From contig CALQCC020000004.1 in NCBI GenBank assembly GCA_943328975.2, positions 1-64,000 of the forward strand: a DNA stretch of 64,000 bases, written 5' to 3'. This document shows, piece after piece, positions 10,802-18,357 of this stretch (position 1 is its first letter; each line of letters opens with the position of its first letter). The translations under genes were made by a program, and so were the position numbers. Source of the DNA: Bordetella parapertussis. GTDB lineage: Bacteria > Acidobacteriota > Terriglobia > Bryobacterales > Bryobacteraceae. Below the pieces are notes generated by a model. It was not told the DNA's origin and made no database searches. It saw only the letters and a list, made by a program, of their open reading frames with translations.

Positions 10802-11188
10802 TTAGGCACGGGTAGCTCCGAGGACACGCTCCAACTCGGAGCGCAGTCCTTCTGGGGTGAACGGTTTGGTGATGTACCCGGCCGCACCCAAACTCATCAT
10901 TTGGTCCACTCGGTCCAATCGGGCATCGGTGGAAACAACGACAACGGGAGTCTTCCGCAGCGCTTCATCAGCCTGAAGCGTTCGCAATAACTCCTCCCCG
11001 TTCATCTCCGGCATGTTGATGTCGCTGAGGACCAGGTCCACGGATTGATGCCGCAATACGTCCAATGCCTGTTTGCCGTTACTTGCCTCCAGTAACGGAC
11101 CCGTTTCCAGACCGGATACGGTCAAAACGCGTTTGATAAAAGAACGCATTACAGGCGAATCATCTACGATCAAAACTCGTAGCGTCAT
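10802..11188 (-). CDS. cheY: Chemotaxis response regulator CheY
   Basis: A stand-alone receiver domain of 128 aa. It has the acidic pair at D9-D10, phospho-acceptor D56 (LVLSDINMPEMNG), T87 in VVSTD and K108 in GYITKPF, so the full set needed for phosphorylation by CheA is present. The ATG overlaps the cheD stop (ATGA). With no flagellar genes in the window, its target (flagellar switch or type IV pilus machinery) is not shown. Confidence 0.93.
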   Translation of the reverse strand: MTLRVLIVDDSPVMRSFIKRVLTVSGLETGPLLEASNGKQALDVLRHQSVDLVLSDINMPEMNGEELLRTLQADEALRKTPVVVVSTDARLDRVDQMMSLGAAGYITKPFTPEGLRSELERVLGATRA

Positions 11189-11709
11189 TTTGTAACTCCT
11201 AGGCTAGTGATCGGCCTCTGTTGTAGCGGCCATTCCCGTTCCGCGACCGCGCCAGCGCGCAGGAAAGCCCTTCCACTGGCTACTTCCATGCGGACGGTGC
11301 GAGCCACCAGCCCGCCCGTTTCTTCTCCATGCACCATCAGTCCGCGTGTCCAAAGAATTTTTCGCAGCACGAGTTGGTTTCGCTTGCCGATGTTGAAAAT
11401 ACCCTTCTCGTCCATCACCTGCGCTCCCCCTGCCGCCCGCAAGGTCAACCTGTTCAAAGTGGCGCCTTTCCTCAGTACGGCTTCGAACAACATTTCGATA
11501 CCGGTGTCTCCAAAGAGGGCCGGATGGCTCCGGGCCCGGTCCAAATTCAAAGCAGAGTCCGGAAGCATGTAATGCAGCAGAGCGCCGATCTTGCTGACCG
11601 GATCGTGGGCCAGCAACGCGATGCAGGAGCCGAGAGCATAAGTGATCAGTATTTCGCGTGGATCAGTGCTCACCTGGCAGTCTCCAATACCCACCACTCG
11701 CAGGCTCAT
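11185..11709 (-). CDS. cheD: Chemoreceptor glutamine deamidase CheD
   Basis: CheD deamidates glutamines on chemoreceptors and can partner CheC-type phosphatases. The catalytic set is visible: T23 and C29 in ITYALGSCIALLA and H46 in GALLHYMLP. The 174-aa length is normal. The ATG at 11709 overlaps the cheR stop and its own stop overlaps the cheY start, both as ATGA. A cheX-like gene two positions downstream fits a CheD-CheC/X feedback module. Confidence 0.93.
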   Translation of the reverse strand: MSLRVVGIGDCQVSTDPREILITYALGSCIALLAHDPVSKIGALLHYMLPDSALNLDRARSHPALFGDTGIEMLFEAVLRKGATLNRLTLRAAGGAQVMDEKGIFNIGKRNQLVLRKILWTRGLMVHGEETGGLVARTVRMEVASGRAFLRAGAVAEREWPLQQRPITSLGVTK

Positions 11710-12554
11710 GACTTCGCCCCCGTGACGCCCGTGCCGGGCTTGCGATATGTCGCCGGACAGACATACTCCAGCGAGTGTTTTATGCCGGAAAGACTTTCCG
11801 AATGGCCCACGAATAGATATCCCCCTGGCTCGAGACAAGCGGCCAGCCGATTCACTACCTGCTCCTGTGTGGGGCGGTCAAAATAGATCATGACGTTGCG
11901 GCAGAAGATTGCCGCGAATGGCGGCATGGCGGGCAAGGGCCGAATCAGGTTGACCTGATCGAAGCGGATCATGCGCCGCACATCCTGCTTAATCTGATAC
12001 CAGCCATCAAAACTGTTTCGTCCGCGGAGTAGGTATTTTGTGAGCCATGGCGCGAGTGGCTGAGGAAAACTATCCTGACGATAAAGGCCTTTTGCCGCGG
12101 TGGACAGCACCCGCGTGGAAATGTCGGTGGCGAGAATTTGAACGGTTTGTGCCTCCGGACCCAGTTGTTCCAATAGCGTCATCGCGAGGGAATACGGCTC
12201 TTCCCCGGTGGAACAGGCGGCACTCCAGATTTGAAGGCTCCGCCTCCCCCTCCAGGCGGGAAAAGCGACATCCTTCAGGAAGTCGAAGTGTTTGCTCTCC
12301 CGGAAGAAGCTGGTGTGGTTTGTGGTCAGGGCGTCGATCAACTCAGTGAGCGCTGTTCCGCTGGCGTCGGCCTGAACAAAAGCACAATAGTCATCCAACG
12401 AGTCGATTCCTCGTTCTCGCATCTTCTTACCCAAGCGCGAGGTTACAAGGCCTTCCTTGCCCTCGCCCAGATCGAGCCCGAACTGTTCGTAGGCCAGCCG
12501 GGCCAGTTGTTGCATTCCCGGAGTTCCAGATTCGCGTAATGATGAGTTAGACAT
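11706..12554 (-). CDS. cheR: Chemotaxis protein methyltransferase CheR
   Basis: CheR uses S-adenosylmethionine to methylate receptor glutamates. The N-terminal helical domain is followed by the SAM-binding motif WSAACSTGEEPYSLAM (about 110-126) and the C-terminal FCRNVMIYF and GYLFVGHSESL signatures. Length 282 aa. The ATG at 12554 overlaps the 3' end of cheA by 8 bp, and the stop overlaps the cheD start. Confidence 0.95.
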   Translation of the reverse strand: MSNSSLRESGTPGMQQLARLAYEQFGLDLGEGKEGLVTSRLGKKMRERGIDSLDDYCAFVQADASGTALTELIDALTTNHTSFFRESKHFDFLKDVAFPAWRGRRSLQIWSAACSTGEEPYSLAMTLLEQLGPEAQTVQILATDISTRVLSTAAKGLYRQDSFPQPLAPWLTKYLLRGRNSFDGWYQIKQDVRRMIRFDQVNLIRPLPAMPPFAAIFCRNVMIYFDRPTQEQVVNRLAACLEPGGYLFVGHSESLSGIKHSLEYVCPATYRKPGTGVTGAKS

Positions 12555-14388
12555 CGGTTTGTTGGCTGTGAATCGCATCCAGATCGAGAATCAACCCTAC
12601 TTGACCGTTCCCCAGGATGGCGCCACCCGCAATTCCGGGGATATTCTTGAGCATCTCGCCTAACCCCTTGATGACGACTTCCTGTTTCCCGACCAATTCG
12701 TCCACCATGACGCAGAAGGTCGCGCCGCGCGCTTCGGCCACGATGAACAGACATTCCTCTGGCCTTTCAGAACGTGCGGCGATGCCCAGCCTTTTGGACA
12801 GCCTTACGACGGGAAGCAGACTCCCCCGGACCATGGCCATCTCACGGCGGTTTTCCACCGTGAAGATCATATCGGCGGTGGGCCGCAGCATCTCACGCAC
12901 CGAAAACAACGGAACGATAAAGCGTTCCTGGCCAACACCCACCACCAGACCATCGATGATGGCTAAGGTCAGAGGTAACTTCAGCTGGAACGTCGTGCCT
13001 TCGCCTGGCGTGGAGGTGATATCGATCCGGCCGCGCAGTTTTTGGATTTGCCGTTTGACCACATCCATTCCAACCCCGCGCCCTGAGATATCCGTTATCT
13101 TGGCTGCAGTGGATAGACCGGGATGAAAGATGAGGTGGAATATGTCGTTGTCGGAGAGAACGGCATTATCATCGATCACCCCTTGTTGACGGGCCTTGGC
13201 CAGGATTCTAGCCTTGTCGAGTCCTTTGCCGTCATCTGAAATACTGACTACGATCCAGCCAGCTTGATGACCAGCCGAGAGCGTGACTCTGCCAATGGAA
13301 GATTTGCCTGTTTTCGAACGTTCTTCTGCCGATTCAATGCCGTGATCCACCGAGTTCCGGATCATGTGCATCAAGGGATCCGCCAATTGTTCGACGATGT
13401 TGCGGTCTAGCTCGGTGTCACCGCCAAGAGACTCCAGATCCACTAGCTTGGTGCTCTTCCGGGAAAGATCTCGCACCAGCCGCGACATTTTCTGAAATAG
13501 CCCGTTGATCGGGACCATTCGCATCGACATGGCGGTGCGTTGTAACTCGGCCGTGATTCTTCCCAGCTGCGAGAAATCCCGCAAGAGCGCCGGGTTTTGC
13601 AGACTGGCAATCTCCGGATAGTGCCGCACCATGGATTCGGCGATCAGCAGCTCGCCCACCATGTCAGCGAGGTAGTCGAGTTTGTCTGTATCAACGCGCA
13701 CGGCTCGTGCTTCGGCCGCAGCAACACTCTTCTTGTTCTCGGGTTTGGTCTCTTCGCTCCACCCCACCTCAACTTGCTTCGCCACGTCCTCCTCACTTGG
13801 TTCAGCGCCCAAGGCCGGTTGCGGACGGGCAGAACCCGGCTCGCCCCGGCTCGCCGCCTTCACGCTTGCAATGAGTGGACTTGCGTCGGGAGCGGCGCCC
13901 AGCGGCTGCCCCGCCAATTTCAGCTCTACCCGGCGAAGCCAATTCCGCAGGAAATCTGCGGAGTTGAGCACCACATCTGCAATTCCAGGAGAAAATCGCA
14001 GCGTGTTCTGGCGCACCAGGTCGAGCAGGTTCTCGGTCTCGTGCGCCACTTCCCGGATCTCGTTCAGCTCCAGAAATCCGGCCAGGCCCTTGATGGTGTG
14101 AAAGCCGCGGAACACGGCATTGATGGCTTCTCCGTCGTCCGGAGTTTTTTCGAGGGTGAGCAGTTGTACGTCGGACCGATCCAGATGCTCGCGGGCTTCC
14201 ATGATGAAGTCCTGCATGAGTTCCGGGTCAGCGGCAAGCGCGGACATGGGATCATCCGCAATGACCGCGCCCCCCGCAGGCAAACCTTCCGCCTCGATGG
14301 CCCGGCGGAGCCGTTCAATCCCCATGGTAAGGATGTTTTCCCTTACCTCGGGCACCGCACTGCGGCCCAGTTGGTTTTCCAGCTCCAT
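12547..14388 (-). CDS. cheA: Chemotaxis histidine kinase CheA
   Basis: CheA is the central kinase of the array. The HPt domain holds phospho-acceptor H97 (FRGFHTIKGLAGF). Next come a linker, the dimerisation helices, the HATPase domain with N-box HMIRNSVDHGIE, G1 DDGKGLD and G2 GRGVGMDVVK, then a CheW-like domain ending at residue 613. No separate CheY/CheB-binding P2 domain is evident. The start is ambiguous: ATG 14388 (MELENQLGRS) is chosen, while GTG 14457 is in frame and would add 23 residues. The 54-aa frame just upstream could be part of an original longer N-terminus. Confidence 0.92.
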   Translation of the reverse strand: MELENQLGRSAVPEVRENILTMGIERLRRAIEAEGLPAGGAVIADDPMSALAADPELMQDFIMEAREHLDRSDVQLLTLEKTPDDGEAINAVFRGFHTIKGLAGFLELNEIREVAHETENLLDLVRQNTLRFSPGIADVVLNSADFLRNWLRRVELKLAGQPLGAAPDASPLIASVKAASRGEPGSARPQPALGAEPSEEDVAKQVEVGWSEETKPENKKSVAAAEARAVRVDTDKLDYLADMVGELLIAESMVRHYPEIASLQNPALLRDFSQLGRITAELQRTAMSMRMVPINGLFQKMSRLVRDLSRKSTKLVDLESLGGDTELDRNIVEQLADPLMHMIRNSVDHGIESAEERSKTGKSSIGRVTLSAGHQAGWIVVSISDDGKGLDKARILAKARQQGVIDDNAVLSDNDIFHLIFHPGLSTAAKITDISGRGVGMDVVKRQIQKLRGRIDITSTPGEGTTFQLKLPLTLAIIDGLVVGVGQERFIVPLFSVREMLRPTADMIFTVENRREMAMVRGSLLPVVRLSKRLGIAARSERPEECLFIVAEARGATFCVMVDELVGKQEVVIKGLGEMLKNIPGIAGGAILGNGQVGLILDLDAIHSQQTDV

Positions 14389-14393
14389 TGCAG

Positions 14394-14558
14394 TCAGAGC
14401 GACTTCAGCCGCCGAGCCGCGGCTCTGGTCACAGATCCGACGCAAGAGGCAACCCACTCGCCTTCTACGGGACCCTCGAGAAGCAGGCAGGAGGCCATTT
14501 CATCGACTTGTGAACGCAATGCTTCCGCTAACTCCTGAGTAGTAAGGGGTCTAGTCAT
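14394..14558 (-). CDS. 54-aa ORF between mcp and cheA
   Basis: The ATG overlaps the last 8 bases of the mcp frame, as cheR overlaps cheA, and the stop lies 5 bases before the cheA ATG. The product begins [20 protein letters not shown], looks helical and amphipathic, and matches no family I know. It is either a small coupled protein or the frameshifted start of cheA, whose own frame is open upstream to 14457. The position inside a tightly packed operon is the main support. Confidence 0.4.
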
Positions 14559-16230
14559 CTGGGTGTCTCTGGGGCGTCCTCACGAAAAGTGGGGACAGAT
14601 CCTCAGCCAATCTCCTCGAATTCATCCATGGGGATCGAAGACGGGCCCTGCGACCATGCATTCCCACCGGATGGCGCCGTTGCGATTGGGGTTGGCCGAG
14701 CCGCGGCGTGGACGGACGCACGAGAGGTTTGTCCGCCTCCGGCCCCCCCCTTCTGGGTGCGGCGTTCCCGCTAACCTCGGTCCCGGCAAGAGCCGCTAGA
14801 CGACCAACTAGTTCTCGCATGGTCGCCGACTGTGCGTTGAGTTGTTCCGCGGCTGCAGCGCCTTCTTCGGCGCTGGCGGCGGAGCGTTGGGTGACCTGCT
14901 CCATCTGCGTGATGGCCTTGGAAACCTGTTCGATTCCCCGAGTCTGCTCTTCGCTGCCTAAGCTCACTTCATCGACCAGCACCTTTACTTTGGAGGACTC
15001 TTCCGTGATGGTTCGCACCGCACCGGCGACTTCATCTACTTTGGTCTTGCCTTCGTTAGACTTGGCAATCGACTCAGCAATCAGTGTTGAGGTGTCGCGG
15101 GCTGCTTGAGCACAGCGTTGAGCGAGGTTCCGCACCTCATCGGCAACCACAGCGAATCCCATGCCCGCCTCTCCTGCTCGGGCGGCTTCTACTGCGGCGT
15201 TGAGGGCGAGAATGTTGGTCTGAAATGCGATTTCATCAATGACCTTGATGATCTTGGAAATCTTGCCGGACGACGTATTAATCTCGTCCATTGCAACCAC
15301 CATCTGATCAAGCTTACGGTTGGTAGCGCCAAACGTCTGTTGCGTATTGGTCACCAAAGCTACGGCGGAGCGGGAATTCTCCGCATTCTTGCGGGCCATA
15401 GAATTGATCTCCTCGCTGGAGGCGGAGGTCTCCTCTAGGGACGCGGCCTGCTCACTCGCCCCTTGCGCCAGCGACTGACTGGTGGCCGCTACTTCACTCG
15501 CGGCCATGGCCACTTGATCCGCGCTCTCCGCAATTTGCTGGGTAACCTGGCCTAACGCTTGGTTCAACGAACGCAGCAAGAGAATGGAGCAGCCAATGCC
15601 TGTGGCAAAAACAATGACCAACATCACCAGCGTCCACATTCTGGTGAAGCTTGAAGTAGCGACCGCTTGGGTCGCCGTGATATCCCCCCACGCGCTGTTC
15701 CACTTTTGCATGACATCGAGCATTTCCATCAGCGGCGTGGCCGCCGGCTCCACCTCCGCCCGATAGCGACGAATGGCTTCATCGGAGGAGTTGCGCTGGC
15801 TCAGAGGGAGGACTTTCGACTCCCATGCGGCAAAATAGTGCTCAAAGGATGCTTGGAGTTTCTGAAAATTGGCCCGGTCATCCGCCTGACTGATGGTGGC
15901 TTCGTAATCGGAGAGACCTTTGGAGATCTTGCTCTTCACGTCGCTAAGTTCGCTCTCGATCCTGGAGTGCTCCGCAGGGGTCCGCGAGGCCAAATGCTGC
16001 CAGGACAGCGCCTGGTGCCAGCGACCGTTGTTATCTACATCGGCGATAAACGCGAGGCCCGGCATGGCATCCGTGGTTAGGCTCCGGACACCGGCATCAA
16101 TGGCCCCTAGGCGCCAAACCGTCAGTCCGCCCATCAGCAGCGCGAGCGTCATCAACATACCGGCCAGCACGCTGACACGTTTGCCAATTGTCATTTTTGA
16201 GTTCATGTGATGTCGTTTCTCCAAACTCAT
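14551..16230 (-). CDS. Methyl-accepting chemotaxis protein, C-terminal tail out of frame after G8 tract
   Basis: A transmembrane chemoreceptor. TM1 lies near residues 20-42, a four-helix-bundle-like periplasmic sensor at 45-195, TM2 near 197-220, then a cytoplasmic signalling domain whose tip [20 protein letters not shown] is canonical. Start 16230 overlaps the cheW stop (ATGA); ATG 16206 ([10 protein letters not shown]) is an alternative. After NAAPRR the reading frame passes a run of eight G (14743-14750) and becomes arginine-rich, ending at 14551. With one more G the frame would instead end [12 protein letters not shown] at 14603, a typical MCP tail. This suggests an indel, slippage or a sequence error in the homopolymer. 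Confidence 0.88.
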
Positions 16231-16742
16231 TGCAGTATCGATTGCAAACCGGACAGTTCCTGATCTTTCAGCACCTGCCCGATATCGAGCAAAATCTTGA
16301 CTTTGTCTTTTACTTTGGCGAGCCCGAGCAAATACGGGGTGGATACCCCGTCCCCAAAGTCCGGTGTCGGCTCAATCTCACTGCCGTGAAGATTCAATAC
16401 TTCGGACACTTCGTCGACGATGATTCCGGTGTTGATCGCCGGACCCGCCTCGCCGTCCACCTGGATCACGATGATGCAGGTGCGTTCGGTATGCCCTTGC
16501 TCGGGCAGCCCGAACTTCAGGCGGAGGTCTACCACCGGGATCACCTTGCCGCGGAGGTTGATTACGCCCTTCACGCAGACCGGCGTTTGCGGAACCGTGG
16601 TGATGTCCTGAATCCCAATAATCTCCCGGACATTCATGACACGAACGGCAAACTCTTCTTTCCCCAGGCAGAACGTCAGGAACTTACCCGCTCGCGGATC
16701 GATTGCCGCGGCTTCTTGTTTTTCGTACAGTGCAGTAGCCAT
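16227..16742 (-). CDS. cheW: Chemotaxis adaptor protein CheW
   Basis: CheW links receptors to CheA. The 171-aa protein is a single CheW domain with conserved segments [38 protein letters not shown] and a C-terminal [12 protein letters not shown]. The ATG at 16742 is preferred, although the frame extends to 16763. It lies between two receptor genes and its stop overlaps the downstream mcp start by ATGA. Confidence 0.94.
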
Positions 16743-16762
16743 GAAATTGCTCGTCCTCTCCA

Positions 16763-18184
16763 CTAGCCGACCAACGTACGGAGTTCTTCCACAACGTAGG
16801 TCAGCGATTTCGCTTGTCCTTCCAACTCGCGGGATACGGCGGCGTTCTCTTCGGCGCTGGCGGCGTTGCGTTGGGTGACATCTTGGATCTTCGCTACCGA
16901 GGAAGAGAATCTCTCAATCCCGACAGCTTGTGATTGAGAGGAATGATTGATCTCTTCAATCATGGTGCGTACCCCACCAAAGTCATGCAGCAGATCTTGA
17001 ATCACGGCGGAAACCTGTTGCGCCCGGGTACTCCCTTCGGCGGATAGCGTCGAGGACTCCTCGATCAGTTCCGCGGTTTCCCGCGCCGCGCCAGTAGATC
17101 GTTGGGCCAAGCTCCGGACTTCATCCGCAACGACAGCAAACCCGGCACCCGCCGAACCCGCGCGAGCGGCCTCGACCGACGCGTTGAGCGCAAGAAGATT
17201 AGTTTGGAAGGCGATCTCTTCAATTTGCTTCACAATCTTGGATACCTTGCCGCTCGACTGTGCAATCGCGTCCATTGCGGTATTTAGTTCCTCCACAGCC
17301 TCTTGCGAATGGGCGGCTTTGGACGCGAGTGCCTCGACCAGACCGGTGGACTTCTGACAGGAGGATGCGTTGGTACGCGCGGTTTGAGAAACCTCTCCAC
17401 TGGATTCGACTGCGTTCGCGACCGATTGCGCCTGGAAGGACGCTCCTTCGGCCATAGCCCCGCTGGCCGAGGCGACTTGGGTGGCCGCTGCCGTCAAGCC
17501 CTCTGCCGTCGCGGAGAGTTGCTGATCGAGTTTCTGGAGTACTTGGGCTACATTGCGGGATACCAGCCAGCTGGCTGAGGCCGTCAAAGCGACCGCGAAC
17601 AACACGCCTAGAATCACAGCCATGACACCTTGCTCGAAGGCTTGGTTGTGCGCTGCTTCGGTCTGCGTGACGCTGGCTTGAATCAAGTCGGTCGCATTTG
17701 AATTCCGGGTCTCCAGTGCCTCAAAGGTGGCCAAGAACGCTGGATACTGCCGGACGGCCGCAGCGCGATTGGTATTGATCACGTCGAACAGCTTGGTCGC
17801 AGCCTCCGCGTATTGATTCAGTTCGGGCTCAATCGCGGAGAGCGCCGTGCGGATTTGCGGGGACAATTCGAGCTTCCCGTTGCGCTCCATCGCCTCCCGA
17901 AAAATGCGAAGGTGCTCTTGAAGATCGGCGCGAACCTCGCGGCGCTGTGCGGGCGAATCCGCAGCCAGAACACTCAACACATCCGCGCGAACAGCATCGT
18001 GCATCATGTCCGCTTCCATGTGATTGCGCATCGCGTGACCGGAGACCACTAACTCCTTGGCCGCGTCATTGAGTCCACGCATGGTCATAAACGAGAACAA
18101 GCCGAGACTTGCCGTCAATGTCACGGTGATCGCGCCGAACGCCAAGAGCCGGGTTCTTATGGAAGCTTTCTGAAGTATGTGCAT
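16763..18184 (-). CDS. Methyl-accepting chemotaxis protein
   Basis: First gene of the chemotaxis operon, 473 aa. TM1 is near residues 10-32 ([20 protein letters not shown]), a helical periplasmic domain follows, TM2 is near 190-210 ([20 protein letters not shown]), then the signalling domain with tip [20 protein letters not shown] and [16 protein letters not shown]. No HAMP domain is obvious between TM2 and the signalling coil. It has no C-terminal docking pentapeptide. ATG 18184 gives [14 protein letters not shown], a positively charged start before TM1. The 173-bp gap to the divergent gene at 18358 should hold the operon promoter, but I see no convincing motif. Confidence 0.93.
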
Positions 18185-18357
18185 AGGAAGTTTTCGATCC
18201 GTCAAACGACAGATGAACACTCTATCGGCGCGGGGGCAGCGCGGAGGAGCACAATCCTGGTCGGAATAATCCGGCCCCATACTCAGGCTCTTCCGAGCGA
18301 TGAGCCTTCCTGTACCCAGCCGCTTCCACGGCCTAGGGAAATCAAGGGGGATTTTGG

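Follow-up and report, generated by a model that had tools for sequence, protein, structure and literature searches.

One of the only two chemoreceptor (MCP) genes of the acidobacterial genome considered here ends out of frame: downstream of a run of eight G residues, the acidic C-terminus of its family lies in another reading frame, and the assembled protein finishes instead in an Arg-rich tail. The explanation we favour, tentatively, is a recent −1 slip at a G tract that would have arisen by chance – in other words, a frameshift of one base, of an ordinary kind, in one of two receptors. Slippage as the cause, the existence of the base change in cells and its effect on adaptation are inferred, and several other explanations, from sequence error to an evolved genetic switch, have to be weighed against the same evidence.

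The genome comprises 4.34 Mb in 69 contigs and encodes a single CheA; both of its MCPs fall within the window, by which we mean the whole 64-kb stretch of DNA that was analysed. Read along the minus-strand transcript, the order of the genes is the second MCP, cheW, the MCP with the displaced tail, cheA, and then cheR-, cheD- and cheY-like genes (Table 1). The names of the last three are presumed from their sequences; the frames of these genes parallel those in the corresponding clusters of the two closest relatives, G008 and G001. The affected open reading frame is an MCP by its Pfam content, with PF00015 at 295–447 (154 bits against a cut-off of 34.6) and PF12729 at 12–184.

Table 1. Features of the chemotaxis cluster, in the order of minus-strand transcription
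Feature	Position	Strand	Description
Second MCP	16763..18280	(-)	ORF and Pfam; without long tail; the genome's only other MCP
cheW	16227..16763	(-)	ORF and Pfam
MCP ORF as assembled	14551..16230	(-)	559 aa; 4HB sensor domain and MCP signalling domain
G8 run	14743..14750	(-)	Zero-frame codons AGA AGG GGG GGG CCG
Arg-rich out-of-frame tail	14554..14742	(-)	Stop codon 14553-14551
Family's acidic tail, other frame	14603..14742	(-)	Stop codon 14605-14603, after a 12-residue end
cheA, first part	14394..14558	(-)	54 codons; matches the N-terminus of relatives' CheA through ...VEGEWVA, then out of frame
cheA, main frame	12547..14457	(-)	Hpt, H-kinase_dim, HATPase_c and CheW domains
Downstream part of the cluster	10802..12578	(-)	Presumed cheR-, cheD- and cheY-like genes

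The first-pass annotation of this DNA had described a G8 homopolymer that separates two alternative C-termini, and both elements are indeed there: the run can be read directly from the minus strand, and the alternative frame leads to an acidic end that stops where it had been placed. As assembled, the MCP closes with a C-terminal stretch (67 residues, not reproduced here) whose last residues are QRHPDD, and its stop codon falls just beyond the start codon of cheA (ATG, 14558-14556). In the other frame, a stretch of 48 residues can be read, and the conserved 11 residues of the acidic end are encoded at 14609-14641. The run, a slip-prone repeat whose length sets the frame, is the sole G/C run of at least 7 in the window; as only two G7 matches are found there, compared with about 11 in shuffled sequence, such runs are depleted and the G8 tract is locally conspicuous. 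In the whole genome, 23 overlapping G8 matches resolve into 17 separate tracts.

Which of the two tails is ancestral can be judged from the relatives. Of the 61 genomes searched with the MCP protein (its own included), 36 gave a match, and C-termini were read for 21 relatives' MCPs (L002–L030, the own copy excluded), a set that leaves out proteins lacking the exact hairpin motif or a stop within the locus. A long tail is present in 13 of these and absent from the other eight; all 13 long tails run through an acidic stretch and end in an aromatic/hydrophobic motif, as in one 30-residue example. A further sample of 85 MCPs on contigs of named genomes (L062–L141) includes 59 with a long tail, of which 37 have the acidic motif. 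The two closest orthologs – G008, at 81% identity, and G001, at 75% – likewise close with 12-residue ends that terminate in EFEEIH or EFEEIR. Since the long-tailed relatives carry acidic ends, these comparisons indicate that the original C-terminus of the family is the acidic one and that the Arg-rich tail is derived. The earlier view of the latter as atypical of MCPs thus stands; the contrary scenario, that all orthologs have the Arg-rich tail in frame, does not, as no ortholog whose C-terminus was read has a counterpart of it.

A possible role of the displaced peptide is suggested by known adaptation tethers. In PMC7390727, such negatively charged peptides are described by an xZxxZ pentapeptide rule, with Z standing for F, W or Y. 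The acidic, aromatic C-terminal peptide of the relatives, borne by a flexible linker that follows the signalling domain, resembles the NWETF tether of Tar and Tsr, from which the present gene differs in that its tail is out of frame and in that the peptide of its clade, EFEEI plus one residue, lacks the last aromatic residue. The strict pattern is matched neither by the Arg-rich tail nor by the acidic frame (EFEEIG), nor by the nearest orthologs; it is matched by more distant ones (e.g. L004, L006, L008, L009 and L013), amounting to seven of the 13 long-tailed relatives and to 29 of the 59 long-tailed MCPs in the larger sample. Docking of CheR or CheB by the acidic tail, as first proposed, is plausible all the same.

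The position of the change can be narrowed further. Between conserved anchors on either side of the run, the interval measures 56 nt here versus 57 nt in G008, and the G8 tract is absent at the aligned position in both G008 and G001. The one-base deficit lies within an interval that contains the tract, and G8 is the most likely site of the change. As to timing, the 33 nt that encode the conserved acidic residues differ from G008 at none of the first, none of the second and four of the third codon positions, and from G001 at one, one and eight, respectively. To judge from this pattern, the acidic frame is one that selection held until recently, or still holds in cells; the third-position bias implies that the shift is recent, that it is absent from some cells, or that it is a sequence error.

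The last of these options gains weight from the neighbouring gene. The frame of cheA is also broken, by one base near 14448, about 290 bp downstream of G8, although no homopolymer is found at that break. It sits ahead of the Hpt domain, in an N-terminal extension that the CheAs of seven relatives possess (L054, L055, L057, L058, L059, L061 and L230) and that is missing from four of the same type, which start directly at Hpt (L232, L233, L234 and L235); four further CheAs (L222, L223, L224 and L226) are of another type. Restarts at GTG 14457 or ATG 14388 are possible and would yield a kinase that keeps all four Pfam domains. Both indels – in the MCP tail and in the CheA extension – thus hit appendages and leave the signalling cores of the two proteins intact.

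With breaks in its sole CheA gene and in one of its two MCP genes, the genome might be taken to show the onset of decay, in which selection on the whole chemotaxis system would be relaxed and both genes would be early pseudogenes. The sparing of the cores speaks against this, as do the lack of the CheA extension in four relatives, the open and well-conserved bodies of both genes and an intact gene for flagellar FlhA, and we consider such decay improbable.

More serious, albeit still unlikely in our estimation, is the explanation that the consensus lost one base in G8, and perhaps another in cheA, while the cells carry the acidic frame. A consensus error at G8 would give an identical picture; it would also fit the full conservation of the acidic tail in its codons and the broken cheA in a genome with no other CheA, and the closeness of the two breaks, each of one base and both inside about 300 bp, could mean one badly called stretch. 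What weighs against it is, besides the position of the cheA break away from any homopolymer, the general state of the assembly. Frame switches unexplained by gene overlap number 15 in 479 kb of own sequence – a sample that includes five tract loci added deliberately, scanned by a method that overlooks pieces as short as the MCP tail. For G001 the count is 17 (419 kb) and for G008 it is 13 (418 kb), so that no excess of frame breaks over these relatives was found. A comparison of 1.26 Mb of own sequence with G001 (0.82 Mb) and G008 (0.42 Mb), covering orthologs of at least 50% identity (199 G001 genes and 87 G008 genes), returned 11 candidate breaks on the own side, only two of which are real: that in cheA and one in another gene on the same contig. 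The other nine proved to be 5′ leaders of stop-to-stop ORFs, which together with antisense ORFs account for most of the split tblastn matches, and the candidates on the G001 and G008 side are leaders too, or unclear. A gene at about position 15672 of L258 (G000:C4, about 159.67 kb), presumably DUF1552-like, has a frame break away from any homopolymer, its G001 homolog being open.

Homopolymer runs of moderate length are likewise in order. In a 464-kb sample, all 24 G/C6 runs flanked on either side by coding signal, and the single such G/C7 run, are in frame, as are 187 of 193 G/C5 runs; for runs of 5–7, therefore, no general homopolymer problem was found in the assembly. Longer runs are a different matter. 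An automatic frame test could score only three of the 17 tracts of at least 8 (two in frame, one out) and, at a looser threshold, four (three in, one out), but by manual reading six of them are coding. Of these six, three G8 runs are in frame (L032, L038 and L043), which again argues against a calling error, whereas two or three are out of frame – those in the MCP, in L035 and probably in L040 – a proportion that also fits undercalled long homopolymers.

The two cases outside the MCP both involve C9 runs. In a Ser/Thr kinase–TolB gene (L035:101-2759; G000:C8 around 64198), the frame changes at the run, where the kinase gives way to the sensor half, and most homologs in relatives consist of one ORF, about 860–1067 aa long; in an Ig-like gene (L040:1489-2706; G000:C21 around 66860), the end probably changes frame at the run, the homolog L217 ending in a longer Ig-like strand. 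Breaks at runs of at least 8 are as compatible with a miscall confined to the longest runs as with slippage at such runs in cells; if they are errors, frames at such G/C runs in this assembly are not to be trusted without reads. G8 runs in or beside kinase–TolB genes also occur in this genus (G002:C21:37968, G002:C71:20833, G014:C18:7130 and G000:C11:12142), which may be chance, such genes being many.

If the run does change length in cells, it could in principle serve as a switch. According to the first-pass annotation, the G run might alternate the receptor between two C-terminal tails by phase variation, here a tethered (acidic) and an untethered (Arg-rich) form; it also allowed for a fixed mutation or a sequence error. 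The frame relation at G8, a slip-prone run at a frame-sensitive position, holds; a switch between two functional tails remains without support. There are precedents for variable runs in chemoreceptor genes, the literature found being mostly on Helicobacter and Campylobacter, with none for Acidobacteria. PMC3234257 describes, for Helicobacter bizzozeronii, 80 simple repeats and 43 potentially phase-variable genes, among them an MCP gene with a C9 run at its 5′ end, where – as here – a homopolymer decides the reading frame. In Helicobacter pylori, the leader of the tlpB chemoreceptor gene contains a G-repeat read by the small RNA RepG (PMC8295292); there, too, a variable G run is tied to a chemoreceptor gene, but it lies in the leader and sets expression, whereas the present G8 is coding and affects the end of the protein. 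For genes annotated as MCPs, PMC3917866 reports amino-acid changes and not run-length changes.

Unlike the Helicobacter genome described in PMC3234257, the present genome has just 17 G/C tracts of at least 8, and its G8 matches are not enriched (23, against 2–71 in genomes of the same genus); a search for loss of mismatch repair found none, MutS and MutL both being present. The run lies at the 3′ end of its gene, and conservation of the repeat in orthologs, which a contingency gene would lead one to expect, is missing in G008 and G001, as is any counterpart of the Arg-rich tail in the orthologs read. An evolved system of phase variation therefore has a low probability in our view. Less probable still, we believe, is a newly born reversible switch, through which G8 would govern the tether used for adaptation in one of the two receptors. 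Were it true, one state would display an acidic docking peptide and the other a basic tail that stops just past the start of cheA, so that a change of tail would go hand in hand with a change in translational coupling to the kinase gene.

A final alternative is that a single DNA sequence gives rise to both tails, either by a ribosome slipping −1 at G GGG GGG or by a polymerase adding a G. The zero-frame sequence AGG GGG GGG is a perfect X XXY YYZ site in the right frame, from which −1 slippage enters the acidic frame. The other hallmarks of programmed slippage are wanting: the site is as unconserved as the tract itself, the RNA downstream of the run is no more stable than shuffled sequences (z = −0.30), and when a wider piece is taken, its stability is below that of shuffles (z = +1.50). 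We regard this mechanism, whether programmed or leaky, as very improbable.

Returning to the recent −1 slip that we favour, the sequence of events may be pictured as follows. The linker that joins the signalling domain to the C-terminal acidic peptide is poorly conserved, and the G run would have arisen there by chance; a −1 change at the run would then have shifted the conserved acidic end into another frame and exposed a random Arg-rich tail in its place, either recently or in only part of the population. Because the change leaves the sensor domain and the signalling domain as they were, the adaptation enzymes would be expected to dock less well, but the receptor would not be lost. Should the change be real, it would represent a clean natural loss of the tether for adaptation, in an acidobacterium whose one CheA and two receptors make up a small system for testing what the tether is worth.
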